The notes beneath the pieces are model-generated. The model was not told the DNA's origin and did no database searches. It worked only from the letters and a program-made list of their open reading frames with translations. 21,901 nt of DNA from a virus, in the IMG/VR virus record IMGVR_UViG_3300047474_000273, positions 1 through 21,901 of that record, one strand, 5' to 3'. A program made the position numbers and the translations under genes. Each line of letters starts with the position of its first letter. Within the stretch, counting starts at the first letter, position 1. This document shows, piece after piece, positions 1,467 through 21,901 of the stretch.

Positions 1467-4400
1467 TTAGTCGCCCATTATAAATCTAACCCAAGTATGC
1501 GAAGCAACTGCTGGTTGACCAAAGCCACCTGGATCACGTTGTCCACCTGTATTGGTTAGATTTACATTAACTGTAATAGTCGTACTGCTGAAGTCTGTGA
1601 ATGCTGTAGGAGATCCTGCTGATCCGTTACCTGCCACTTGGGCTCTGTTGTTTTGGTCACAATGAGTAACATAATACTTGTTGTTCTGAGCATCGTAACC
1701 ATATAATACAATACTTAGTGGTGGTTGGTCATAACCTGTAAAGTCTATAGTAGCATCATATCCACTAAAAATAATACTGCTAATACCTGCAGAAACGTTT
1801 GCGTTACCCGACACACTATTATCACCTGAATCATAATCTACTCTAAATTCTTCCCAATGTGTTGCTCTGGTAACACTACCACCGCCGCCACCGGATTGGT
1901 CAACCCAACTTAGTCCGCCACTACCGTCTGTTTTTAAAACTTGGTCTGCATCACCATCATTGTTTGGTAATGTTAAAGTATAACTTGCCGCCGCACTATG
2001 TGGTGGTCCTTTAATTGTTATACCGTGTGAGTTATTCTCACAATTTAATTTAAACTGTCCTGCACCTTTTGTAGCATTACCTTTGAATACTACAACACCT
2101 GATCCGTTTGGATCTAAATCTATATCGCCGTTACTTGTGGAAACAATGTCTTGTCCATTAACATCTAATGCTCCACCTAGTTGCGGACTAGTATCATCTA
2201 CTACATCAGACATACTACCACCGCCACCTGACTGTGCTACCCAGGCGTAGTCAGATCCATTCCAACTTAATACATACCCACTTGTTGGATTACTTTGATT
2301 TAAATGTGCGTCTACGTCTGCATTATCGTAATTACCTGCTACTAATAAACTTGTTAAGTCAACATTACCTGATTGTCCTGTTAAACTGATTACGTTGCCA
2401 CTTATTGTTAAGTCTTGTGCATCAGTATCTGTTTTGCTGTATGGTGCCAACATAGTAGTTAAATCTACTGTGTCGTTGTTACCACTAATTGTAATTACAT
2501 TACCACTTGCACTTAATGTTTGGTCTACGGCTCCTGCGGCTCCGTCGGCACCTGCATCACCTTGTGGTCCTTGAGCACCTGTTGGTCCTACTGGGCCTCT
2601 AACATTACCTGCTGTAAGTACTGTTGAGTTACTTAGTGTTAAAGTTAAATTGTCGCCTGATAATGCCGCACTACTTACACTAACACCAGTTGCACCTTGT
2701 GGTCCTTGTGGTCCTGCTACAGTACTATCTGCACCATCGGCTCCGTCACTACCATTTGACCCTGCTGGTCCAGTTGCACCTACATTACCCTGTGGTCCTT
2801 GAATACCTTGTGGGCCTACTGGTCCTCTAACGTTTCCTAAATCTTGTACAGAACTGTTTGAATATGTTATAGTTAAATTACTGCTTACCAATGCTGTTGA
2901 TGTAATGCCTATACCTGTTGTACCAGTGTCACCTGTATCACCTTGAGCACCTTGCGGTCCTTGAGCACCTGTATTACCTTGTGGACCAGTTGCACCAACA
3001 CTTGTTAAGTCAATTGTTGTGCCATCGTATGTTAAGTCGTTACCACTTAATGTTATAGTAGGTCTGCTTGTTAAATCTGTAAATACACCACTTGTTGCCA
3101 CTGTGGCTAATGTAGGTGTACCTGATAAATCACTGTACGCACCACTTGATGCTACTGTGTGTAATCCTAAATTGGTAACTGCATTAGACTTTTCAGAAGT
3201 GCTTAAATTTTGATTGTTTACATCTATTCTTAATCTATTTCCTAAAGATGTAGTTGTTGTTGTAGCAAAGTTAGGATCATCGCCTAACGCCGCCGCTAAT
3301 TCGTTTAATGTATCTAATGTTGCTGGCGCACTATCTGTTATTTCTGCAATAATATTTGTTTTTGTATCAAATCCTTGTGCTGTTAAATAAGTTCCAACAT
3401 CACTATCGCCATAACTTGATGTTTGTGCAACCCAGGCGTAATCACTGCCATTCCAACTTAATACATATCCTGAAGTTGGATTACTTTGGTTTAAGTGACT
3501 ATCAACATCTGTATTTGTAAATCCAGCATTGTCTACCCAAGCATAATCTGAGCCGTTCCAACTTAATACATATCCTGAAGTTGGATTACTTTGGTTAAGG
3601 TGTGCGTCTACATCTGCATTATCATAATTACCTGCTACTAATAAACTTGTTAAATCTACATTACCACTTTGTCCTGTTAGGCTAATAGTGTTTCCACTAA
3701 TTGATAAAACCTGAGCATCAACATTATCTAATAAACTGCTTAAATCAACTGTATTACCACCTGAGATAGAAAGGTTACCTGTGCCTGAATCATATGTTAA
3801 AGCCTGAGCATCTGTTTGTGCTATCCAATCATAGTCAGATCCATTCCAACTTAATACTTCGCCTGATGCCGCAGTACTTTGATTTAGATGTGTATTAATA
3901 CCTGCATCTAATCCTGCTGTTGTTTGATATCCTGTTAAGTCTGCTGGAGCAAAAGTAAATGCACCAGTACTGTTATTGTATGATAAAGTTCCGCCGCCAC
4001 TTGCACTTGCTGTAGTAACACTTAAATCTGTTAATGCTACTCCACCTGATTGTGCAACCCAGGCGTAATCACTCCCATTCCAACTTAATACTTGACTAGC
4101 ACTTGCACCACTTTGGTTTAAATGAGTATCGACATCTGCATCTGTGTACCCTGCGTTACTTACCCAAGCATAGTCACTGCCGTTCCAACTTAATACATAA
4201 CCGCTTGTTGGGTTACTTTGATTTAAATGTGCATCTACATCTGAAGTTGTAAAACTGCCTGAACTGTTAAATGTAACACTATCGTTTGCATCGTCTGTGG
4301 TAATTGTCATACCAGTACCAGCAACAAATGTTACTGTGTCTGCTGATGCATCTGCAACGATTGTGGTTTGTCCACTTACAGCAATATTTTTAAATGCTTC

Positions 4401-5783
4401 AGTGGCTCCACCGCCACCGCCACCACCTGAGTTGGTGATTGTGATAGTGTCAGTTCCTTCATCGGTTGTAATTTGTATACCTGAGCCTGCCGCAAATGTA
4501 AGTCCGTCTGCACTACTGTCTGCACTAATAGTATTTTGTCCACTTACAAAAACGTGTTTGAACGCATTCTGCGGTGTAGCAGTACTATCAATTGTTAGTG
4601 TTTTAGTTCCAGCATTTATTGTTGCTGTGATATCATTTCCGCCTGTAATTGTAAACACATCATTTGTGTTTGCCGCGGACGCCGTGTTTGTGCCGTCTGT
4701 AAGTCTTACAAATGAATTAGTTTGTGTTGCCCCACTCACTAATGCGTTTGCTTCTGCTTTACTATAGACACCTAAATTTGTTCTTGCCACTCCGGCATCA
4801 GTTAGACCACTTAGGTTACTGGAATTTGTTGCCAATCCTAAAATGTAACTGTCATCTAATACTGTACCGTTAGTGTTGTTATATATTTGGATGGCTGTGT
4901 CAGCCTGTCCTTTGAAGTAGTTTGCGTGTACTTCATAAAATTGTCTTGTGGTTGAACCTATATCGTAACTGTTTGTTACTGTAGGTACACTTGTTTGGTC
5001 AAGTCTAACAGTTTTTGCTAATATGCTTGATTCTGTAAAACTAGGTACTGTGATAGTTTTCCAATGTACAACACCGTTACCATATGTTGAAAGTACTTGG
5101 TCACTTGTACCGTCTGCTGTTGGCATTGTAAAACTGTTACCAATTTTTAATGCACCAGCACCTGTAATTTCTAAGTCTGGATTTGTTGTTAAACTGCCTT
5201 GAGCATAAAATTCAATATTAGTATTACTTCTTAGTTGGATATGTCCATCTGAATTTTGTGCTGTGGATAATATAAGTCCGTGTGCTGATGTTAATTCAAC
5301 ATCAACTAAATCGTTTGAACCTAATCTGAATCTTGTGTGTCCGTCAAAGGTTGTTGAATCACTATAAGTGCCGTAACTGTTACTGCTTTGCACACCTATA
5401 AACCCTGCAACATTGGCATTTGCTCCGTAGTTTTGTCCTTGTGCTACAAATACGTTTCCGTTATTATTGTGTAGTTGAAAAGGAGCAGTGGGTGAATATT
5501 GTGTGGCATTAACTTTGATTAAGCCATTTGCTACATCTTCTGTTACTGTGGTATTTGTGCCTGGTGCAATGTTTTTAAATTTAAGAACTGAGCCGTCTTT
5601 TTCTTTAAAGACGCCAACTCCTGATGCTCCTACGTTGCTGGCACTAGCCACTGCCGCATTTGCGTTTGAACTTAAACTGTCTTGAGCAACAAAAATGCCT
5701 GATGACCCGTCATATACTAGTATCTGGTTATCCGAGATACTATCTATATTAAAGGTTAATTGGTCTCCTGTAATATTTGGCAT
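1467..5783 (-). CDS. Giant repeat-containing and collagen-like tail fibre protein
   Basis: This 1438-residue protein is probably a trimeric tail or side fibre. From about residue 510 to 1185 it has six copies of a unit reading (D/I)x(A/S/T)HLNQS, then VLSWNGSDYxW. Within residues 930-1086 it has three Gly-X-Y collagen-like segments (for example GPQGIQGPQGNVGATGPAG), which in phage fibres form triple-helical shafts. Short SGN/LTGQSGNVDLTSLL modules lie between them. The last 130 residues, after a GGGGS linker, form a separate domain (VTRATHWEEFRVDYDSGDNS onward) that could be the distal tip or a trimerisation domain. A late-type promoter lies 30 bases upstream, and AGGA precedes the ATG by 8 bases. 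No intramolecular chaperone motif was recognised. Receptor binding is an inference from the architecture. Confidence 0.85.
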   Translation of the reverse strand: MPNITGDQLTFNIDSISDNQILVYDGSSGIFVAQDSLSSNANAAVASASNVGASGVGVFKEKDGSVLKFKNIAPGTNTTVTEDVANGLIKVNATQYSPTAPFQLHNNNGNVFVAQGQNYGANANVAGFIGVQSSNSYGTYSDSTTFDGHTRFRLGSNDLVDVELTSAHGLILSTAQNSDGHIQLRSNTNIEFYAQGSLTTNPDLEITGAGALKIGNSFTMPTADGTSDQVLSTYGNGVVHWKTITVPSFTESSILAKTVRLDQTSVPTVTNSYDIGSTTRQFYEVHANYFKGQADTAIQIYNNTNGTVLDDSYILGLATNSSNLSGLTDAGVARTNLGVYSKAEANALVSGATQTNSFVRLTDGTNTASAANTNDVFTITGGNDITATINAGTKTLTIDSTATPQNAFKHVFVSGQNTISADSSADGLTFAAGSGIQITTDEGTDTITITNSGGGGGGGATEAFKNIAVSGQTTIVADASADTVTFVAGTGMTITTDDANDSVTFNSSGSFTTSDVDAHLNQSNPTSGYVLSWNGSDYAWVSNAGYTDADVDTHLNQSGASASQVLSWNGSDYAWVAQSGGVALTDLSVTTASASGGGTLSYNNSTGAFTFAPADLTGYQTTAGLDAGINTHLNQSTAASGEVLSWNGSDYDWIAQTDAQALTYDSGTGNLSISGGNTVDLSSLLDNVDAQVLSISGNTISLTGQSGNVDLTSLLVAGNYDNADVDAHLNQSNPTSGYVLSWNGSDYAWVDNAGFTNTDVDSHLNQSNPTSGYVLSWNGSDYAWVAQTSSYGDSDVGTYLTAQGFDTKTNIIAEITDSAPATLDTLNELAAALGDDPNFATTTTTSLGNRLRIDVNNQNLSTSEKSNAVTNLGLHTVASSGAYSDLSGTPTLATVATSGVFTDLTSRPTITLSGNDLTYDGTTIDLTSVGATGPQGNTGAQGPQGAQGDTGDTGTTGIGITSTALVSSNLTITYSNSSVQDLGNVRGPVGPQGIQGPQGNVGATGPAGSNGSDGADGADSTVAGPQGPQGATGVSVSSAALSGDNLTLTLSNSTVLTAGNVRGPVGPTGAQGPQGDAGADGAAGAVDQTLSASGNVITISGNNDTVDLTTMLAPYSKTDTDAQDLTISGNVISLTGQSGNVDLTSLLVAGNYDNADVDAHLNQSNPTSGYVLSWNGSDYAWVAQSGGGGSMSDVVDDTSPQLGGALDVNGQDIVSTSNGDIDLDPNGSGVVVFKGNATKGAGQFKLNCENNSHGITIKGPPHSAAASYTLTLPNNDGDADQVLKTDGSGGLSWVDQSGGGGGSVTRATHWEEFRVDYDSGDNSVSGNANVSAGISSIIFSGYDATIDFTGYDQPPLSIVLYGYDAQNNKYYVTHCDQNNRAQVAGNGSAGSPTAFTDFSSTTITVNVNLTNTGGQRDPGGFGQPAVASHTWVRFIMGD
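2231..4245 (-). repeat. Six HLNQS...VLSWNGSDYxW coding repeats in the fibre gene
   Basis: Units lie at about 2235-2320, 3425-3510, 3528-3613, 3817-3895, 4048-4130 and 4150-4240. Four units share the same 23-residue core from HLNQSNPTSG through DYAWV. The other two vary in the middle (GASASQ, TAASGE). The units at about 2235 and 3530 share a longer identical protein stretch reaching back to ISLTGQSGNVDLTSLL. The DNA differs at many third positions, for example ggcgtagtcagatcc against agcataatctgagcc, so these are not recent DNA duplications. Confidence 0.85.
2527..2995 (-). repeat. Three collagen-like Gly-X-Y coding segments
   Basis: Three Gly-X-Y runs are encoded within this span: about 2925-2995 (GATGPQGNTGAQGPQGAQG...), 2690-2830 (GPVGPQGIQGPQGNVGATG...) and 2527-2607 (GPVGPTGAQGPQGDAGADG...). 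They are separated by two related spacers, each with a (L/I)T(L/I)xxSNSxV core and ending GNVRGPVGP. Such segments form triple helices in phage fibres. Confidence 0.85.
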
Positions 5784-11602: not shown

Positions 11603-12017
11603 TTAATTCCTCCTCTGTTAGTGGCGAGCCTTGTGCTATTTCAAAACACCTTGCTCTTTGTTTTTCTCTTCTACCTTCTATAATCTCTACACTTCTAGGT
11701 TTACTTACTGCTAAGTTACCAATGTCTCTTCTTTCACCTGAAGCATTTACTTTGTTAAACTTTTCATTAGCAACGTTTAAGTCTGCTGTGAGTTTTTGAT
11801 TTTTTGCTTGTAGTTGTTTGTTGATATCTCTGATTTGTGCAATATCTTTTAATTGTTGCTCAATAACTTTTTTCTGTTCAGCAACAGCACCTTCTAATTT
11901 AGCATTGTTAAGTGTAAGAATTTCGTTTTCTGATTGTAAATGTTTGACATACATAAGTCCTCCCATTGCACCAAGGACTGCTATACCCATTATGATTAAT
12001 TTAAGTTGACTGAACAT
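11532..12017 (-). CDS. Inner-membrane spanin (Rz-like)
   Basis: This is the probable i-spanin. Residues 6-24 form one N-terminal membrane anchor (KLIIMGIAVLGAMGGLMYV). A long periplasmic coiled coil follows at about 28-95, with heptad-like QSENEILTLNNAKLEGAVAE and KQLQAKNQKLTADLN. The C-terminal tail has two Cys. Its 161 residues are close to lambda Rz (153), with the same order of parts. It overlaps the lipoprotein gene by 71 bases out of frame and the acyl-carrier-like gene by 17 bases. The ATG lacks a clear Shine-Dalgarno site, so coupling to the upstream gene is likely. The call rests on topology and gene arrangement, since spanins share little sequence. Confidence 0.82.
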   Translation of the reverse strand: MFSQLKLIIMGIAVLGAMGGLMYVKHLQSENEILTLNNAKLEGAVAEQKKVIEQQLKDIAQIRDINKQLQAKNQKLTADLNVANEKFNKVNASGERRDIGNLAVSKPRSVEIIEGRREKQRARCFEIAQGSPLTEEELNATKKSQINAECPNIANPDYVPY

Positions 12018-12228
12018 TGGACTCTACTAATTTAATAAGGTCGCCCACAGTCTTAATATCTAGAATTGCTTCTTCGTCTAAAGAAATGTTTAATTTTTCA
12101 TCTAATATGATGCTGACTTCAACTAAATCATATTCGTCTGCATTTAGTTCGTCTACAAGATTTGTGTTATCTTCTAATGTTTTATCACCGAAATGGTGTG
12201 TTAAAACTTCTAGTACTGTGTCTCTCAT
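12001..12228 (-). CDS. Acyl-carrier-protein-like protein lacking the phosphopantetheine serine
   Basis: The 75-residue acidic protein aligns along its length with bacterial acyl carrier protein. LVDELNADEYDLVEVSIILD corresponds to [20 protein letters not shown], and LDEEAILDIKTVGDLIKLV corresponds to IPDEEAEKITTVQAAIDYI. The Ser of the DSL motif, which carries 4'-phosphopantetheine, is Glu here (DEY, codons GAC GAA TAT). It therefore probably cannot carry acyl chains in the usual way and may act as a decoy or protein-binding module. An acyl role through another residue cannot be excluded. It overlaps its upstream neighbour by 4 bases (ATGA) and lies just before the spanins. Confidence 0.8.
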   Translation of the reverse strand: MRDTVLEVLTHHFGDKTLEDNTNLVDELNADEYDLVEVSIILDEKLNISLDEEAILDIKTVGDLIKLVESNVQST

Positions 12229-14462: not shown

Positions 14463-14646
14463 TATCACTTACAGGACGTACTTGATGTTGCTCTAAGTCG
14501 TATAGTTCGCTCATACGATCCACAGCACTTTTGATAGCCACTAAAGGCTCACTTTTGTTTTGCTTGATGTGGCTATGTACAAACCCTAATGGTTTAAACT
14601 CAGGTTCTGTACTTATTATTTCTTTTGCTATTGCTTCTAAATCCAT
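14431..14646 (-). CDS. Small unknown protein, antisense to the phoH 3' end
   Basis: The protein has 71 residues, is probably mostly helical and has no recognised domain. It begins MDLEAIAKEIISTEPEFKPL and ends DIILRLLCDTD. No membrane segment is seen. A late-type octamer, CATAAATA, lies 7 bases before the ATG, and no Shine-Dalgarno site is visible, so it may be read from a leaderless mRNA. It is head to head with the oxygenase gene (35 bases apart) and tail to tail with phoH (32-base overlap). That it is real is supported by the promoter and by the need to fill the gap. Confidence 0.6.
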   Translation of the reverse strand: MDLEAIAKEIISTEPEFKPLGFVHSHIKQNKSEPLVAIKSAVDRMSELYDLEQHQVRPVSDIILRLLCDTD

Positions 14647-14653
14647 TGTGTAG

Positions 14654-14661
14654 TATTTATG
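14654..14661 (-). promoter_or_regulatory. T4-type late promoter (CATAAATA), start-codon proximal
   Basis: The minus strand reads CATAAATACTACACAATG, with 7 bases between the octamer and the start codon of the 71-residue gene. It lies 5 bases from an oppositely directed late-like element. Confidence 0.5.
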
Positions 14662-14666
14662 TGGTG

Positions 14667-14674
14667 GCTAAATA
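14667..14674 (+). promoter_or_regulatory. Late-like promoter element (GCTAAATA) for the oxygenase gene
   Basis: GCTAAATACTTGGGAATG places the element 7 bases before the proposed oxygenase start. It shares the TAAATACTT core with the late promoters at 6228 and 13528, but its first bases depart from the consensus. Confidence 0.4.
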
Positions 14675-14681
14675 CTTGGGA

Positions 14682-15227
14682 ATGATAAAAGAACTCAATA
14701 ACAATATAGACTGTGATAAGATAGTAGAAGCATACAAACTTATAGAAGACAAGTTTGATTTATCTAATCCTTTTCCAGCAGTAAGTATAACCAGTTTAGA
14801 TGGCGAAGATGATTGGACATACTCCACACAAAAGACTGCTGACTTGTCTGTGCAAGAGTCCCAACTGAGTGTGTTGAACAATAGTCTTAAAGGAACTTAT
14901 TACGAAGATTTAATTTCACAATATCCAGAGTATTACAGATGGAGAGTATTGTGTATTCCGGGCAAACGTATATACAATGTACATCAAGATTCAAAGCCTA
15001 ATCAAGGCAATGTGTCAAACATAAGAGTACATATACCTATGGTTACAAATGAACAATGTTTCTTTCAATTTTGGAATGGTAGACCTGAAGCAAATACACA
15101 AAGTATTGTTAGGTCATATCATATGGAAGTTGGGAAGGCATATGAAGTTAATACTTCAAATTATCATTCTGCTGTGAATTTTGGTACTGAGTTTAGATAC
15201 CACTTGATAGGTGTGAAATACGTTTAA
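14682..15227 (+). CDS. Fe(II)/2-oxoglutarate oxygenase, Asp/Asn beta-hydroxylase-like
   Basis: This is a probable cupin-fold dioxygenase coupling 2-oxoglutarate oxidation to hydroxylation of an unknown substrate. Numbered from ATG 14682 (181 residues), iron ligands are H101-x-D103 in YNVHQDSKPN and H162 in SNYHSAVN. R115 and H117 lie in the family-type NIRVHIPMVTN strand, and R172 in FRYHLIG is the likely 2-oxoglutarate anchor. The HxD...R.HIP...H..xN...R.HL order matches aspartyl/asparaginyl beta-hydroxylases. An upstream in-frame start at 14625 would add 19 hydrophobic residues, but it lies before the late-like element and has no ribosome-binding site. The 3' end overlaps sufE tail to tail by 35 bases. 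Confidence 0.8.
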   Translation: MIKELNNNIDCDKIVEAYKLIEDKFDLSNPFPAVSITSLDGEDDWTYSTQKTADLSVQESQLSVLNNSLKGTYYEDLISQYPEYYRWRVLCIPGKRIYNVHQDSKPNQGNVSNIRVHIPMVTNEQCFFQFWNGRPEANTQSIVRSYHMEVGKAYEVNTSNYHSAVNFGTEFRYHLIGVKYV

Positions 15228-15582
15228 AAGCAGACTCCAAACCTGTTTGTCTTTGCATAGTAATCTTATTCCCAAAAGGCAATTGACTCATAAAAACGTC
15301 AAAGTCATTTTCATTAAAAACTTTTTCATCTTGGAATCTTACTAGCAAAATATGTAGTAGTCCTCCTACTAATTTGCTTTCTGTAAAGAATGTAAACCGT
15401 TTAGATATTTCATCTTTGTAACACCAAACTTTACTTTGACAGCCATACACTCTGTATTCGTCTGTACATCTAGTTTGGTCAAACTGAGGAAGACAATCTG
15501 ACAAACTCATTATAAATTCGTACTTGTCTAAATCTTCCTCTAATATTTCTAACGTGTCTTTGATTTCTTCGAAGTTATTCAC
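15193..15582 (-). CDS. sufE: SufE-like Fe-S cluster sulphur-acceptor protein
   Basis: SufE accepts persulphide sulphur from the cysteine desulphurase SufS and passes it to the SufBCD scaffold. The 129 residues align along E. coli SufE: KYEFIMSLSDCLPQFD with the helix before the active loop, then VYGCQSKVWC around catalytic Cys48 (family GCQSxVW), then LVGGLLHILLVRF and GLESAFKRI. Extra cysteines occur at positions 30, 39 and 54. The start is GTG at 15582, overlapping the upstream gene by 8 bases. No strong ribosome-binding site is seen, so coupling is likely. The first 24 residues match the family's first helix, which supports the GTG start over the Met at 25. It lacks a phage SufS partner here and would work with the host's. 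Confidence 0.88.
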   Translation of the reverse strand: MNNFEEIKDTLEILEEDLDKYEFIMSLSDCLPQFDQTRCTDEYRVYGCQSKVWCYKDEISKRFTFFTESKLVGGLLHILLVRFQDEKVFNENDFDVFMSQLPFGNKITMQRQTGLESAFKRISHLSSGI

Positions 15583-15984: not shown

Positions 15985-15992
15985 TATTTATT
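15985..15992 (-). promoter_or_regulatory. Possible late promoter (AATAAATA) for the small-protein and sufE genes
   Basis: The minus strand reads AATAAATA at the stop codon of the dehydrogenase-like gene. It is 21 bases before the ATG at 15963, leaving room for a leader with the AAGGAG site. Confidence 0.4.
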
Positions 15993-16806
15993 ATTCGTCT
16001 CTTAAATTGTTATTAGTTTTGATTGCCTTTTCTAGTAATTTTAGTTCTGCTTTTAACATTTTAGAATAGTGCAATAATGCTTTTGTGTCTTTTGGAAAAC
16101 AATGTCCTCCAAATCCATATTTGCCATCAGGGCCTGGTACTTTCATATGACTGTTGCCCATACGTGGATCTCTAGTCAACATATCTGTAAATTGTTCCCA
16201 ACTTGCTCTTGCACCACTTACATCATATAATTTTGCTAATTCATTAAACCAAATAACTTTGGTTGCTAACCAACTGTTAATAGTATACTTAATAAGACTT
16301 GCTGTGATTAAGTCTACTTTAAAAGTAGGAACAACTTTTACATTGCTGTGCCTATGATATACTTTTTCAACAAAATCACAATCTTTCCATTTGCCACCTA
16401 ACACTTGCATATTTGGATTTATAAAATCATCGTGTGCATTTGCTTCTGTGAGGAACTCTGGATTGTAAACTATACGCAATTTAAAGTCCTTTTTAAACGT
16501 TGTTAAGTGATGTGGTGTAATAGTACTCTTTATCACAACAACGCCTTTATACGACTGATTATGCAGTTCTACGAGTGTTTCTTGCACTATACTGACATCT
16601 ACATCGTATTGTTCATCACGTTGTGGAGTAGGCACACATACAAAAAGGAGTGGTGGATCAAAGTCATTGACAAGTTTATCAATTGTGTTGTCCTCTGAAA
16701 TTTTAGGATCCACCACAAACTGTTTAACGGTATCAGTATTAAACCCATTGGCTACTGCACCGCCTACGAAACCTTTTCCTATTATACCTATCTTAACATC
16801 AGTCAT
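15991..16806 (-). CDS. Short UDP-glucose/GDP-mannose 6-dehydrogenase-like protein
   Basis: These enzymes use two NAD+ to oxidise the C6 hydroxyl of a nucleotide sugar to a uronate. Visible motifs are the NAD-binding GIIGKGFVGGAV (7-18), FVCVPTP (55-61), VIKSTITP (91-98), YNPEFLTEANA (114-124) with Glu117, the central-domain LIKYTINSWLATKV with Lys173 and Asn177, and FGGHCFPKDT with catalytic Cys236. It has only 271 residues, against about 390-450 in the family, and ends soon after the Cys loop. The C-terminal UDP-binding Rossmann domain is therefore missing and activity on a usual substrate is uncertain. It overlaps the upstream membrane protein gene by ATGA. Confidence 0.88.
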   Translation of the reverse strand: MTDVKIGIIGKGFVGGAVANGFNTDTVKQFVVDPKISEDNTIDKLVNDFDPPLLFVCVPTPQRDEQYDVDVSIVQETLVELHNQSYKGVVVIKSTITPHHLTTFKKDFKLRIVYNPEFLTEANAHDDFINPNMQVLGGKWKDCDFVEKVYHRHSNVKVVPTFKVDLITASLIKYTINSWLATKVIWFNELAKLYDVSGARASWEQFTDMLTRDPRMGNSHMKVPGPDGKYGFGGHCFPKDTKALLHYSKMLKAELKLLEKAIKTNNNLRDE

Positions 16807-17180
16807 CGTATAACCTCTGCTAAGTTCATTAATACTGCTGTGCCTGTTATTGCACTACCTATCATAATTGCTTTATCATTCCAACAATGACCGACATATA
16901 CCCAAGCAATAGAACTGAGAGCATAAGCAACTTTACCTAGTGTTAAAAAATCTGCACTTTGTAAAAACACTCCTAATACAGCAAGTGTTGTTGCCAACCA
17001 TTTGATATAACTATCCAATCCGCCTGTTGGGGTACTTGGTGAGAATATATCAACTTGCTCTTGCAGTTCATCCATCTCTTTCTTAAGACGACTTCTTTCT
17101 GCATTTAGTTCCATCGCAAGACGTCCAGCCTTGCTCATAGGATCAAGTTTATTAACTTCTTCCTTAAATGACTTTTCCAT
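16803..17180 (-). CDS. Small membrane protein with N-terminal coiled coil
   Basis: The 125 residues begin with a charged helix (about 1-45, ELNAERSRLKKEMDELQEQV) that may form a coiled coil. Three hydrophobic segments follow at about 60-76, 83-98 and 105-121. The membrane part matches its upstream neighbour: YIKWLATT against YVKWTASC, and WVYVGHCWNDKAIMI against WMIVGLLWKDRALIL. They resemble short multi-helix proteins of marine phages, possibly the DUF6552 type from memory. Holin activity is possible but unproven. Translation is coupled to the upstream gene through TAATG. Confidence 0.75.
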   Translation of the reverse strand: MEKSFKEEVNKLDPMSKAGRLAMELNAERSRLKKEMDELQEQVDIFSPSTPTGGLDSYIKWLATTLAVLGVFLQSADFLTLGKVAYALSSIAWVYVGHCWNDKAIMIGSAITGTAVLMNLAEVIR

Positions 17181-17492: not shown

Positions 17493-17521
17493 ATTATACA
17501 GTAAAATGTATCTTATGTCAA
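17493..17521 (-). promoter_or_regulatory. Perfect consensus sigma-70 promoter of the membrane-protein operon
   Basis: The minus strand reads TTGACA (17521-17516), a 17-base spacer and TATAAT (17498-17493). The predicted start is at 17486, one base before the ATG. The -35 box coincides with the last two codons (Leu-Thr) of the upstream radical SAM gene, and that gene's TAA stop lies just after it in the spacer. Confidence 0.85.
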
Positions 17522-18964
17522 TAACCAATTTGACTTCTCTTTGATATATTTTTGCATCATTGTGTCCTGTGTGCCTTGGGCAAACATAATCATATTGTTA
17601 TATTCTGCCCATTTCATATTTGGAATAAGTGCTTTCATACTGGATATTTCGTGTGCAGAATAAAGACTTGTTAGATTCTTTGAAAAATAGGCATTTATTT
17701 TGGAGTTTATATCCCTTGAGTGATTTCTATTAGTCCACTCGTTTTCCCAATAGTCACTGCCATACCCTAATTTTAAATCTTCGTAGTTTTGTTCATCAGG
17801 TAAAATAGTGTATCCGTATTTTTCAGGATCTTTATCAAACTCACTTTTAATTTCTTCGTTTTCTAACTTACTGTATAATCTCAATGTAAATGCACCAGCA
17901 CTGGTTAAAAGTTGCTCGTTTACTATACGTTCTGCGTGATGCCAAATAGATTGTTCTGAGTCTCCACTTAACCCTATAATAAAGTTACCATATGTAAAAG
18001 CATCTGGCATTTCACGTTTTACTAATCTTAAGGTATCATAATTTTTTTCAGGCTTACCACCTTTACGAATCATCTTGGTAGCGGCAGGGTTCATACTTTC
18101 TATACCAAAATATAATCCGTGCAATCTGGATTCGTTCATTAGGTCTACTTGATGAGGTTTTGCACCAATAATATCCATACGAGCAAAACTCATAAGCCAA
18201 GGTTCAAATGTCAACTGCCGTTTTGCATCTACAAGTAATTGTAATTTTGCATCTTCTTCGTTGATAGTGTCGTCTGCCAAAAAGAAGTTTGTTATGCCTG
18301 CTTTGTCATAAGCCGTTTGCATTGTTTCAACCAATCTATCCACAGTATTCAGTTGTGGGTTTTTGTTGTTTCTATAATCGTATCCACAAAAACTGCAATT
18401 GAACTTGCACCCTAATGCAGTCTCTATTGTCATTAACTCCTGTGGTTGCCAAAAGTCGTTTTCTTCTATTACATTATAAACAGGGTCGTCCATTATTACG
18501 CCTGTTGGGTTTTTATAACAAGGTGGATTCTCAAATACTCGATAGTTGCTAATGTCTTTGCCTTGTAAATATGCTAACAATATGTTTGTGCATCTGCCTA
18601 TCAGCATTATATCTACCCAACTTTCATCACCTTGAGGTTCTCTAAATCCTCCCAACATAACTTTGAGTTGAGGTATATCTTTTTGTAATTCTTCTACAAG
18701 TTCTTTGTAATAGTCTCTGCCACTAGCATCAATACTGCCACTGTAACCAATCAAACATTCTTCCTCATCGCCGAACCAAGTCAACATAGATTTAACAAGT
18801 AAGTCCTTGGGCCAGGACAGGAAGTAATCTATGTTGGTAGCATCAATACCTAACTTTCTTGCTTCTTGAGTAACATAGTATGCACCAACGGCTCTGCTGT
18901 TATTTTTTATATCACCTGCTTTGGTATTCTTGATATGTAGGTCTGATAATACTAAAAATTTCAT
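17513..18964 (-). CDS. Radical SAM protein, second of a tandem pair
   Basis: The radical SAM cluster motif Cx3Cx2C is at Cys186, Cys190 and Cys193 (ETALGCKFNCSFCGYDY). It would hold a [4Fe-4S] cluster that cleaves S-adenosylmethionine to a 5'-deoxyadenosyl radical. Residues 1-135 look like a Rossmann domain of the type before the core in B12-binding radical SAM enzymes (IGYSGSIDASG, VMLGGFREP, VDIMLIGRCTNILL). The DxHxxG cobalamin motif is not seen. Later core motifs are NFFLADDTINE, GLYFGIESMNP and YGNFIIGLSGDSE. The protein has 483 residues; its substrate is unknown. It starts inside the stop codon of its paralogue (ATGA). Confidence 0.85.
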   Translation of the reverse strand: MKFLVLSDLHIKNTKAGDIKNNSRAVGAYYVTQEARKLGIDATNIDYFLSWPKDLLVKSMLTWFGDEEECLIGYSGSIDASGRDYYKELVEELQKDIPQLKVMLGGFREPQGDESWVDIMLIGRCTNILLAYLQGKDISNYRVFENPPCYKNPTGVIMDDPVYNVIEENDFWQPQELMTIETALGCKFNCSFCGYDYRNNKNPQLNTVDRLVETMQTAYDKAGITNFFLADDTINEEDAKLQLLVDAKRQLTFEPWLMSFARMDIIGAKPHQVDLMNESRLHGLYFGIESMNPAATKMIRKGGKPEKNYDTLRLVKREMPDAFTYGNFIIGLSGDSEQSIWHHAERIVNEQLLTSAGAFTLRLYSKLENEEIKSEFDKDPEKYGYTILPDEQNYEDLKLGYGSDYWENEWTNRNHSRDINSKINAYFSKNLTSLYSAHEISSMKALIPNMKWAEYNNMIMFAQGTQDTMMQKYIKEKSNWLLT

Positions 18965-20406
18965 AGCATACTCTTTGACTTGTTTGAGATGTATTGATTC
19001 ATCATACCATTTTGTACACCTTGTGCAAACATCATCATATGGTTATATTGTGGTATAGGAACATTTGGTATAAGTGTTTTCATCATTGCATAATCGTGAG
19101 CAGTATAGAGGCTTGGTAAGTTATCTCTATAATAAGCATCTACTTGATGATTTAAAATACTTGCATCTGTTCTATTGGTCCAATCATTTTGCCAATTATC
19201 ACTTTCATATCCTATATTATCCCAACTGATAGTTTTTTGTTCTAAAATTTCATATCCGTACTTAGCAGGATCTTTATCCATTTCACTTTTGATTTCATCG
19301 TTTTGTAATTGGCTGTAAAGTCTCAAAGCAGTAGTACCTCCGGCAGTTAGCAGTTGTTCATCACAAATTAATTTTGCGGTATCCCAAATATCTTTTTCAG
19401 AGTCACCAGTTAATCCTATAATAAAGTTGCCATAAGTAAATGCTTCTGGAAATTCTTTTTTGACTAACCGCATAGTATCTATGTTACGTTCAGGCTTGCC
19501 GCCTTTTCTAATAATTTTTGTAATATTAGGATTTAAAGTTTCAATACCATAAAAATGACTGAGTATGTTTGCTTCTCTTAATAAATCTATTTGGTGAGTC
19601 TTTGCACCCATTATGTCTATTCTAACAAATGCCATCAACCAAGGTTCAAACGTCAACTGTTTCTTGACTTCGCCTAGTAACAAAAGTTTATCATCAACTT
19701 CATTAATTGTGTCGTCTGCCAAAAAGAAATTAGTAATACCAGCGACGTCGTATGCTGTTTGCATTGTTTCAACAAGTTTATCTATCCCATTAAGTGTTGG
19801 GTTTTTGTTGTTTCTGTAATCATATCCGCAAAAACTACAATTAAACTTACAACCCAATGCTGTTTCTATAGTTAATAATTCGTTGGGACTCCAAAAGTCA
19901 TCTTCTCTAAGTATATTGTATACTGGAGGTTCTATAATAACTCCTGCAGGATTTTTATACCCTGGCGGATTATCAAACACTTGATATTTGCTAATGTCTT
20001 TGCCTTGCAGATAGTCTAACAGTATGTTTGTACACCTACCTATCAGCAATATGTCTACCCAATCACTATCGCCTTGTGGCTCTCTAAAACCACCTAGCAT
20101 AACTTTCAACTGAGGTATGTCTTGCTGTAACTCTTTGACTAATTCTTTATAGAAGTCAGTACCACTAGCATCAATGCTACCGCTATAACCAATTAAACAT
20201 TCTTTCTCGTCTTTGAAATAAGACAAAATACATTTGACTAATAAGTCTCTGGGCCAGTCTAAAAAATAGTCTATGTTACAACAATCAATGCCTATCTTTC
20301 TTGCTTCTTGAGTAACATAGTATGCTCCGACACCACGCCCGTTATTTTTAATCCTACCGGCGCGAGTTTCTCTCAAATGCAAATCTGACAATACTAGGAA
20401 CTTCAT
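18961..20406 (-). CDS. Radical SAM protein, first of a tandem pair
   Basis: The 481-residue paralogue of the downstream gene has the Cx3Cx2C motif at identical residues (186, 190, 193) and the same N-terminal Rossmann-like domain. About 46 of the first 60 residues are identical between the two, and the length differs by only two. The divergence lies mostly in the C-terminal third (SILNHQVDAYYRDNLPSLY against DINSKINAYFSKNLTSLY) and in the segment after the core (ILSHFYGIETLNP against LHGLYFGIESMNP). This suggests related chemistry on different substrates or a hetero-oligomer. It starts 14 bases after the gp44 stop with no clear ribosome-binding site and is probably expressed from the gp44 transcript. 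Confidence 0.85.
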   Translation of the reverse strand: MKFLVLSDLHLRETRAGRIKNNGRGVGAYYVTQEARKIGIDCCNIDYFLDWPRDLLVKCILSYFKDEKECLIGYSGSIDASGTDFYKELVKELQQDIPQLKVMLGGFREPQGDSDWVDILLIGRCTNILLDYLQGKDISKYQVFDNPPGYKNPAGVIIEPPVYNILREDDFWSPNELLTIETALGCKFNCSFCGYDYRNNKNPTLNGIDKLVETMQTAYDVAGITNFFLADDTINEVDDKLLLLGEVKKQLTFEPWLMAFVRIDIMGAKTHQIDLLREANILSHFYGIETLNPNITKIIRKGGKPERNIDTMRLVKKEFPEAFTYGNFIIGLTGDSEKDIWDTAKLICDEQLLTAGGTTALRLYSQLQNDEIKSEMDKDPAKYGYEILEQKTISWDNIGYESDNWQNDWTNRTDASILNHQVDAYYRDNLPSLYTAHDYAMMKTLIPNVPIPQYNHMMMFAQGVQNGMMNQYISNKSKSML

Positions 20407-20420
20407 ACTGTATATTTAGT

Positions 20421-21347
20421 TTATGCTTCTGCTATCTGTGTAAGTTCTACAAGTGTTGCTGATAAATTTATTTCAGGATCTGCACAACTAACACTCTTAA
20501 CTAAACCATCTCTGATTGTTACTACTGCCTGCATCTGTTGTGCTTCTGTGTCTCCCCATAATTCCAAGTTGCGATACATAAATCTAAATATGTCCTCATA
20601 CTCTTCGGGTCTTGCTTGTCCTACTATTAGTTCTCTTGCTTTCTTGTATTCTTTTGCTTTGAATAAGTCCACCATCTGTAAATGCCAATCGCTTTGTCCT
20701 GTATCGCTTTTGTCAGGCATAACAAGTTCGCCTGTTGTACTATTCATTTGCACCAAGTTAATACATTTTCTCATATCTGGGTATGTTGCATTTACATAAG
20801 TGTCTAATGTTTCCAAATCAATCTTAACATTTTCCTGCACACAAATAGTTGCTATTCTTGAAGTAAACTCAGTCATATCTAACTTCTCAATGTGGAAGCC
20901 TTGACATCTACTGTGTAGTGCTGGAATAATTCTTTGTGGATAGTTACAAGTAAAAATAAACCTTGCAGTAGTGTAATACATTTCTGTAACACCACGTAGG
21001 GCCGCCTGACCATTGGGACTGATATAGTCTGCCTCATCAAGTAATACATACTTGAACTCTCCAAAAGGCATTGTACTAACAAAGTTTGTTATCTTATCTC
21101 TGATAACATCTATGCCGTTTTCGTTACTGGCATTTATCTCTAAAATATCACTACCGTCTACCCCCAGACTGTGTAGCAATAACTTTGCTAGAGTTGTTTT
21201 ACCAGTCCCTGGTGCTCCGCTGAATAGTAAGTGCGGTAATGCACCTTCTTCTATCCAACTGCTTACTTGAACTTTTTGTGCTTCATCTCTAAACACATAA
21301 TCGTTTACATTGTTAGGTCTATACTTTTCTGTCCATATGTCTCTCAT
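20421..21347 (-). CDS. 44: Sliding-clamp loader ATPase subunit (T4 gp44-like)
   Basis: This is the AAA+ subunit of the T4-type clamp loader, which opens the gp45 clamp and loads it on DNA with gp62. Clamp loading also supports late transcription in T4. It has Walker A GAPGTGKT (44-51), Walker B VLLDEADY with the DEAD box (104-107), INASNENGIDVIR and the arginine-finger SRC motif (HSRCQG, 146-148), as in RFC small subunits. Its 308 residues are close to T4 gp44 (319). It starts with MRDIWTEKYRPNNVNDY, the family's usual beginning. Its ATG overlaps the TAA of the 78-residue gene by one base. gp62 and gp45 are not in the window. Confidence 0.93.
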   Translation of the reverse strand: MRDIWTEKYRPNNVNDYVFRDEAQKVQVSSWIEEGALPHLLFSGAPGTGKTTLAKLLLHSLGVDGSDILEINASNENGIDVIRDKITNFVSTMPFGEFKYVLLDEADYISPNGQAALRGVTEMYYTTARFIFTCNYPQRIIPALHSRCQGFHIEKLDMTEFTSRIATICVQENVKIDLETLDTYVNATYPDMRKCINLVQMNSTTGELVMPDKSDTGQSDWHLQMVDLFKAKEYKKARELIVGQARPEEYEDIFRFMYRNLELWGDTEAQQMQAVVTIRDGLVKSVSCADPEINLSATLVELTQIAEA

Positions 21348-21583
21348 TAAATGTCCTCAACCTTCTTTAAATTAGTAGGAAGTATCTCAGAGACCTCAAC
21401 GTCAGTGTGGTTTTGTTCACTGCCTGTTACTGTTTGAAAAGTTCTAGATGTTGTTGTTATTTTAATATGTGTGCCTTCATTGTAATAAGATACTAACTTT
21501 TGTTTAATAAGTTTATTATTAGGTTTAGTTTCTAATTCAAATTCGCCGAACATATCTGTTTGTTTTGTGTATATTTTATTCAT
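21347..21583 (-). CDS. Small unknown protein preceding gp44
   Basis: The 78-residue protein begins MNKIYTKQTDMFGEFELETK. It has a probable beta-strand pair (HIKITTTSRTFQTVTG) and a polar C-terminus, with no recognised family. It heads the transcript containing gp44 and the radical SAM pair. A consensus sigma-70 promoter lies just upstream, with 5 bases between TATAAT and the ATG and no Shine-Dalgarno site. An in-frame Met at residue 11 has no better site. Confidence 0.75.
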   Translation of the reverse strand: MNKIYTKQTDMFGEFELETKPNNKLIKQKLVSYYNEGTHIKITTTSRTFQTVTGSEQNHTDVEVSEILPTNLKKVEDI

Positions 21584-21588
21584 CAGTT

Positions 21589-21617
21589 ATTATACCTTTT
21601 ATTAATGTAAATGTCAA
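21589..21617 (-). promoter_or_regulatory. Perfect consensus sigma-70 promoter of the gp44 operon
   Basis: The minus strand reads TTGACA (21617-21612), a 17-base spacer and TATAAT (21594-21589), with AACTG before the ATG. The RNA would start at or within the start codon. Confidence 0.85.
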
Positions 21618-21621
21618 CCTT

Positions 21622-21901
21622 TTATTCATACCCAAGTGTAATATTAGGTGCGGTGTTTTCATTTACAAATTCAAATATTTTTTGTATGTGTTGTAAATCT
21701 TTTTCACTTCTAAGACTGCATAGTTCGTTTGCAAAATGCAATTCTACATTGTGTTCTAATGCAAGTTTTAATAGTTCTGCTCTGCGTTCTGCATCATCTG
21801 GTAAACAATATATACTGCAAAGTACAATGGCATCTATACCATAACCTGTTATGAATTTTTCTAAACCAGGCAACCAATCTACATACTCATTCTCAAATTG
21901 G
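21622..21901 (-). CDS. Unknown protein, 5' end beyond the window
   Basis: An open frame enters from the right edge and ends at TAA 21622-21624, giving at least 92 residues (QFENEYVDWLPGLEKF...). A TTG at 21873 could be a start, but the frame stays open to the edge, so I treat the gene as 5'-truncated. The visible part looks alpha/beta: GIDAIVLCSIYCLPDDAERR, then LLKLALEHNVELHFANEL and EKDLQHIQKIFEFV. This pattern faintly recalls a serine-recombinase N-terminal fold, but no catalytic Ser region is visible, so no function is assigned. Confidence 0.6.
   Translation of the reverse strand, partial: QFENEYVDWLPGLEKFITGYGIDAIVLCSIYCLPDDAERRAELLKLALEHNVELHFANELCSLRSEKDLQHIQKIFEFVNENTAPNITLGYE

Follow-up and report, generated by a model that had tools for sequence, protein, structure and literature searches.

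Tandem radical SAM paralogues of putative cobalamin-dependent architecture beside the clamp loader gene of a marine jumbo phage

The gp44 unit and its two radical SAM genes

The virus record analysed here, 21,901 bases long, is called the window; a 34-kb contig (L004) is nearly identical to it. On its minus strand, a gp44-type clamp loader gene is followed by two radical SAM genes, A2 and A1. The features of this unit are listed below.

21589–21617, minus: perfect sigma-70 consensus promoter, TTGACA-N17-TATAAT, before the 78-aa ORF, gp44, A2, and A1
21347–21583, minus: 78-aa ORF between the promoter and gp44
20421–21347, minus: gp44-type clamp loader, first large gene of the unit (phrog_168, E 8.1e-80)
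18961–20406, minus: A2, radical SAM paralogue, upstream copy (ORF, 481 aa)
19828–19851, minus: A2 cluster motif CKFNCSFC, residues 186–193 (A1/A2 alignment)
18961–18964, minus: A2/A1 stop/start overlap, ATGA (read from the sequence)
17513–18964, minus: A1, radical SAM paralogue, downstream copy (ORF, 483 aa)
18386–18409, minus: A1 cluster motif CKFNCSFC, residues 186–193 (A1/A2 alignment)
17493–17521, minus: another perfect sigma-70 consensus promoter, where A1 ends, ahead of the DUF6552 genes

Re-reading of the ORFs confirmed the coordinates, lengths, and ATGA overlap of the two genes that a first-pass annotation had reported. A1 and A2 are 69% identical and 83% similar over 482 aligned positions with one gap, which is far above chance. 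Both are intact, as expected from the earlier description of two retained, full-length, diverged copies. The motif C186-x3-C190-x2-C193 occupies the same position in both, again as annotated, and Cys186, Cys190, and Cys193 are invariant in 34/34 aligned family members. Pfam Radical_SAM (PF04055) matched both proteins above its cut-off (A1, E = 3.5e-14; A2, E = 5.2e-15, residues 181–347). Based on the Cx3Cx2C motif, the Pfam match, and a modelled fold with a TIM-barrel core, A1 and A2 are members of the radical SAM superfamily.

The sequence TTGACA-N17-TATAAT occurs twice in the window, both times on the minus strand, against 0.06 occurrences expected by chance. The second site precedes two DUF6552 genes, a dehydrogenase gene, a 71-aa ORF, and SufE. 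In most relatives, too, perfect sites precede the gp44 unit at a short distance, and without exception these lie on the coding strand. Since the two promoters are so placed, A2 and A1 are probably made with gp44 by host-type transcription, and the genes downstream form a unit of their own. The transcript shared with gp44, as proposed previously, is thus supported by the 14-nt gap between gp44 and A2, the ATGA overlap, the perfect promoter upstream, and the absence of a perfect consensus promoter between the genes of the gp44-A2-A1 unit. This unit may be expressed early. An Rfam search of the window found no B12 riboswitch and no other RNA.

A short ORF comparable to the 78-aa ORF lies ahead of gp44 in L036 (4725–4976) and L078 (4791–5030). 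The three short ORFs carry an N-terminal Q-x-x-[LM]-F (QTDMF in the window, QGNLF, and QGDLF), which by eye resembles a sliding-clamp-binding motif.

Genome context and distribution of the family

The gp44 proteins of the closest isolates, the PA5oct/Paride-like jumbo phages (Arenbergviridae, about 287 kb), are 55% identical to that of the window. Gene order in these phages is similar: gp44, a slot, PhoH (opposite strand), DnaJ, and ClpA. Contigs within the window's gp44 clade reach 250,519 and 339,794 bp. The idea of a compact phage genome, which the first-pass annotation had assumed, does not agree with the sizes of these isolates and of these contigs (250–340 kb).

The gp44 clade consists of 16 slot-positive genomes and L116 (support 100/96), within which the window branches off first. 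Among the matches listed, one radical SAM family fills the slot between gp44 and PhoH of these marine phages in 16/17 clade genomes; this proportion is biased upward because positives were gathered via radical SAM searches. The slot of L116 (the 340-kb contig of 339,794 bp) is without a member of the family. We considered universal occupancy of the slot; it was ruled out by a gp44-based scan, in which no slot member of the family was recorded for at least 44 sampled relatives inside and outside the clade (43 in addition to L116), most of them judged from their flanks only. In L135, one of the relatives scored as negative, the slot does contain a remote radical SAM ORF (33 bits).

In a maximum-likelihood tree of 60 rows, clades A, B, and C were recovered at 98–100 bootstrap, and the A1/A2 pair was placed as a local duplication inside clade A (100/100). 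The A2-A1 arrangement in the slot was found only in the window lineage, namely, the window and L004. The relatives show the following contents.

A-c25-B in the slot: L005, L015, L016, L018, L029
A-c25 in the slot: L034
c25-B in the slot: L011, L013, L019
B in the slot: L020
C before gp44 and B after gp44: L014
Type D in the slot: L036, L037, L042, L078

Two family members of L013 are about 11 kb apart. Tandem pairs also occur in L079 and in L105, L107, and L108; in the latter three, first copies and second copies each fall into a clade of their own. We asked whether c25, a small gene that separates A from B in relatives, encodes a peptide substrate, and rejected this idea: it is a separate conserved gene that is absent from the window. 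It is unlike the structural protein found at the same place in PA5oct.

The family was found only in viral contigs. A tblastn search of A1 and A2 against 50,697 phage records gave no credible match. No cellular donor was found, because a genome scan of 84,980 species returned only remote radical SAM proteins (22–27%). PHROGs gave no significant whole-length match; the one match was to phrog_1802 (E 0.0075, about 45 residues), and at most 2/34 family members matched any PHROG at E<0.01. Together with scores far below the cut-offs of curated profiles, these results place the pair in no characterised family.

Predicted cofactor class and divergence of the copies

The AF2 model of A1 (pLDDT 93.4, pTM 0.91) superseded a weak first model from 6 sequences (pLDDT 71). 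Its 15 best PDB matches are all cobalamin-dependent radical SAM enzymes except for one MtaB model; MgmA, CysS, OxsB, TsrM, and TokK lead, followed by RimO, AprD4, and MiaB. Class 1 cobalamin radical SAM enzymes have a five-stranded N-terminal Rossmann domain and then a beta-hairpin; they bind cobalamin base-off and His-off, without a His ligand, and under the cobalt sits an amino acid of the loop following strand 3, known examples being Asn, Arg, and Trp (PMC13331322). The A1 model has five parallel Rossmann strands (2–7, 41–46, 70–75, 101–107, and 119–122) and a short hairpin after them (142–150). Ser75 is conserved in 33/34 and Gly105-Gly106 in 34/34 family members. In the window, the strand-3 loop reads S75-G-S-I-D, and position 77 is S, P, L, or T across members.

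The first-pass annotation described a B12-domain-like N terminus without the DxHxxG motif, and this description holds. The N terminus of A2 gave a sub-threshold Pfam B12-binding match (E 0.0097); this profile matched 6/16 family members at E<1, the best at 1.3e-4. DxHxxG, and with it the His ligand loop, is absent from both A1 and A2; both have D8-x-H10, and H10 occurs in just 2/34 members. However, the weight implied for the missing motif is not justified. Its absence is normal in class 1 enzymes (PMC13331322) and is expected since they bind B12 without a His ligand.

The PhpK model, a B12-type profile, matched 34/34 members at E<1e-5, and many also matched other B12-type models. The scores for PhpK (TIGR04479) were 59.0 (A1) and 58.4 bits against a curated cut-off of 600, and those for the MgmA/MJ_0865 family (TIGR04014) were 20.1 and 28.8 bits against 360. 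Identity between A1/A2 and any characterised enzyme is about 10–15%. The modelled fold suggests that A1 and A2 bind cobalamin.

The two copies have diverged unevenly. Identity between A1 and A2 is 80% over residues 1–150, 72% over 177–350, and 53% over 351–483. The ratio of C-terminal to N-terminal distance is 2.33 for A1-A2 and 0.87–1.39 for 44 other clade A pairs. This contrast is based on one pair; a binomial test against the most extreme other ratio gave p = 0.012, and Fisher's test against the closest orthologue pair gave p = 0.08. Synonymous divergence approaches saturation, with dS about 2, so the duplication is old, and a dN of 0.23 against this dS (dN/dS about 0.12) indicates that both copies are under constraint. 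Recent gene conversion was considered as the source of the similar N-terminal halves and rejected, because synonymous divergence is high to a similar degree in every segment, with near saturation in these halves as well.

The mapping of copy-specific residues, which the first-pass annotation had suggested, covered 124 columns that do not vary among the eight remaining clade A members: five are changed in A1 only, four in A2 only, and eight in both, all outside the cluster motif. Neither copy is degenerate, and every catalytic residue is present in both. The distinct roles suggested earlier for the two copies are favoured by this integrity, by the low dN/dS, and by the concentration of divergence in the C-terminal domain. 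We infer that cofactor chemistry was retained and substrate recognition changed between A1 and A2. The two proteins probably modify two different targets, because their cofactor parts are alike and their putative substrate-recognition ends have diverged.

Neighbouring genes, possible roles, and known systems

The genes flanking the gp44 unit on the minus strand are listed below.

21622–21873, minus: C-terminal part of a protein that the end of the window truncates (in L004, 6213–7340)
17180–17485, minus: DUF6552 membrane protein with its own promoter (PF20189, E 1.4e-16; SemiSWEET_2, E 0.0012, below cut-off)
16803–17180, minus: second DUF6552 protein (PF20189, E 6.6e-8)
15991–16806, minus: nucleotide-sugar-dehydrogenase-like protein, 271 aa (PF00984 and PF03721; phrog_9148)
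15193–15582, minus: SufE-like Fe-S assembly protein (PF02657, E 1.4e-17)

SufE was present in 10/10 clade contigs checked and 0/8 outgroup contigs. This distribution is consistent with a demand for Fe-S clusters; L116 carries SufE too. The phage-borne Fe-S assembly genes (window, 15193–15582; L004, about 1945–2328) comprise SufE and a nearby A-type carrier-like gene.

Several neighbours are related to glycans. In L004 (6213–7340), the protein truncated at the window end looks like two fused sporadic-carbohydrate-cluster families, one of them a 2OG oxygenase (TIGR04324, E 6.8e-22; TIGR04323, E 1e-14; both below the curated cut-off). A GT4 gene is a neighbour in L016, glycosyltransferase-like genes are neighbours in L080, and the clade A member of L085 has DAHP/KDO-8-P-synthase-like, cytidylyltransferase, and DUF6552 genes near it. 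These glycan-related neighbours are cargo within a variable region. The dehydrogenase-like protein has no Pfam match to the C-terminal UDP-binding domain, and its gene is present in 10/10 clade contigs checked, L116 included. A link between the dehydrogenase and the radical SAM genes was weighed as strong evidence and downgraded; the dehydrogenase of L116 occurs in the absence of this radical SAM family, so the glycan context lacks specificity. In L107 (2718–7463) and L108 (2661–7437), an operon-like row encodes an oxidoreductase NAD-binding protein, two tandem radical SAM proteins of approximately 600 aa, and a FabA/FabZ-like protein, which would suit an acyl substrate with a dedicated electron supply. 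From gene context, a host-surface glycan or lipid precursor is the least bad guess for the putative substrate.

Other observations concern the surroundings. DUF6552 membrane proteins, a tandem pair in the window, also occur near radical SAM members of distant viruses (L085, 7092–7334; L025, 8165–8395). In related jumbo phages, other radical SAM genes form arrays (L196, 2132–16574; L197, 4503–14246; L198, 5449–17067), with 11–14 Radical_SAM matches per 250–340 kb contig and 16 in a 127-kb contig. Interspersed in these arrays are genes for sugar dehydrogenase, GDP-mannose dehydratase-like proteins, GHMP kinase, and carbamoyltransferase. In the window, a 75-aa ORF (12001–12228, minus) is acyl carrier protein-like by eye, with Glu in place of the phosphopantetheine Ser; it had no Pfam match at E<0.001 and has relatives in L019, L034, and L036. 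A 1438-aa fibre-like protein (1467–5783, minus) contains a collagen-type stretch and repeated SNPTSGYVLSWNGSDYAWV units. An ORF at 14625–15227 (plus, its neighbours being on the other strand) gave a sub-threshold match to aspartyl/asparaginyl beta-hydroxylase (2OG oxygenase-like).

As the best explanation, to which we assign an even chance, A2 and A1 may be catalytically intact, specialised paralogues of class 1 cobalamin-dependent radical SAM architecture that act on different substrates or positions. Each would begin with a Rossmann domain and its following beta-hairpin, continue into a radical SAM core whose [4Fe-4S] cluster is seated on CKFNCSFC, and end in a C-terminal helical domain. Each protein would bind SAM and cobalamin and carry out radical chemistry, with C- or P-methylation as the likeliest outcome. 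The two would share cofactors and differ in their substrates or in the positions modified on one product, and may be active early in infection beside the replication genes. Several marine phages of the gp44 clade have a single family member, which counts against paired specialisation.

An obligate heterodimer, in which A1 and A2 form one enzyme and one half is possibly mainly structural or regulatory, appears unlikely. Translational coupling would fit the ATGA overlap, an interface could form between the conserved N-terminal halves, and tandem pairs recur (A with B in five genomes; those of L079 and L105/L107/L108); however, single members occur in L019, L020, L034, L036, and L078, the L013 members are far apart, and both window copies keep all catalytic residues. 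Slightly more weight, although still in the range of doubt, may be given to a relic N-terminal domain in cobalamin-independent enzymes resembling the sugar dehydratase AprD4 or methylthiotransferases. The matches of the A1 model to AprD4, RimO, and MiaB, the sub-threshold Pfam B12-binding scores, and the Ser, Pro, Leu, or Thr at position 77, with no clear cobalt-facing residue in the strand-3 loop, are in keeping with such a relic; cobalamin enzymes at the top of the PDB search, the conserved Ser75 and Gly-Gly, and B12-type profiles as the nearest curated ones argue against it.

The target may instead be a nucleic acid or protein, through an anti-defence modification of DNA or RNA or the modification of a phage structural protein, which we regard as comparably doubtful. 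Co-transcription with the clamp loader speaks for it, as does MgmA, which is the best structural match by E-value and methylates a protein residue, and phages are described as hypermodifying DNA (PMC12783734). However, a message shared with gp44 is uninformative on the substrate, and no further DNA-modification gene was recognised in the neighbourhood, which is part of the genome only. A recent, redundant duplication kept for dosage and heading for loss is highly improbable: the duplication is local to clade A and present only in the window and its near-identical contig, but its high dS, the integrity of both copies, and the uneven divergence towards the C-terminal domain all contradict this.

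Returning to specialised cobalamin-type paralogues, we tentatively envision, as a less likely possibility, that marine jumbo phages have a virus-restricted family of B12-type radical SAM enzymes, repeatedly co-expressed in pairs, each pair performing a new two-step, methyl-type modification of a host or phage molecule early in infection. Most known cobalamin-dependent radical SAM enzymes serve in the biosynthesis of natural products and cofactors, and such enzymes come at a high cost. Their presence in an early replication unit, with paralogues swapped at one place, would imply a chemical modification that is important to infection. The pair is a small testable system, with two enzymes that differ mainly at one end, and may bear on vitamin B12 as a resource during marine infection.

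The class 1 enzymes CysS, OxsB, TsrM, and TokK, and MgmA (9ccb) share with A1/A2 the domain order (Rossmann domain and hairpin, core, and C-terminal helices), and the His-loop motif is likewise missing in A1/A2. Their TM-scores to the A1 model are 0.54–0.61 by query length, at 12–15% identity. In contrast to them, A1 and A2 are phage-encoded, and their cobalamin and reaction are only predicted. The PhpK P-methyltransferases are the nearest curated profile for 34/34 members; however, the A1 match spans the radical SAM core alone, at one-tenth of the cut-off. The whole fold is also alike in two proteins of uncultured Caudovirales phages, A0A6J5LFT0 ('COG1032 Fe-S oxidoreductase'; TM-score 0.83 by query length) and A0A6J5LDK6 ('Radical SAM'; 0.78 by query length), whereas their identity to A1 is 19%. 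Pelagimyophages have radical SAM cassettes in a host-recognition cluster (PMC7029224). By description, these are likewise accessory radical SAM genes of marine myophages, but their genome position is different, with A1 and A2 adjoining gp44.
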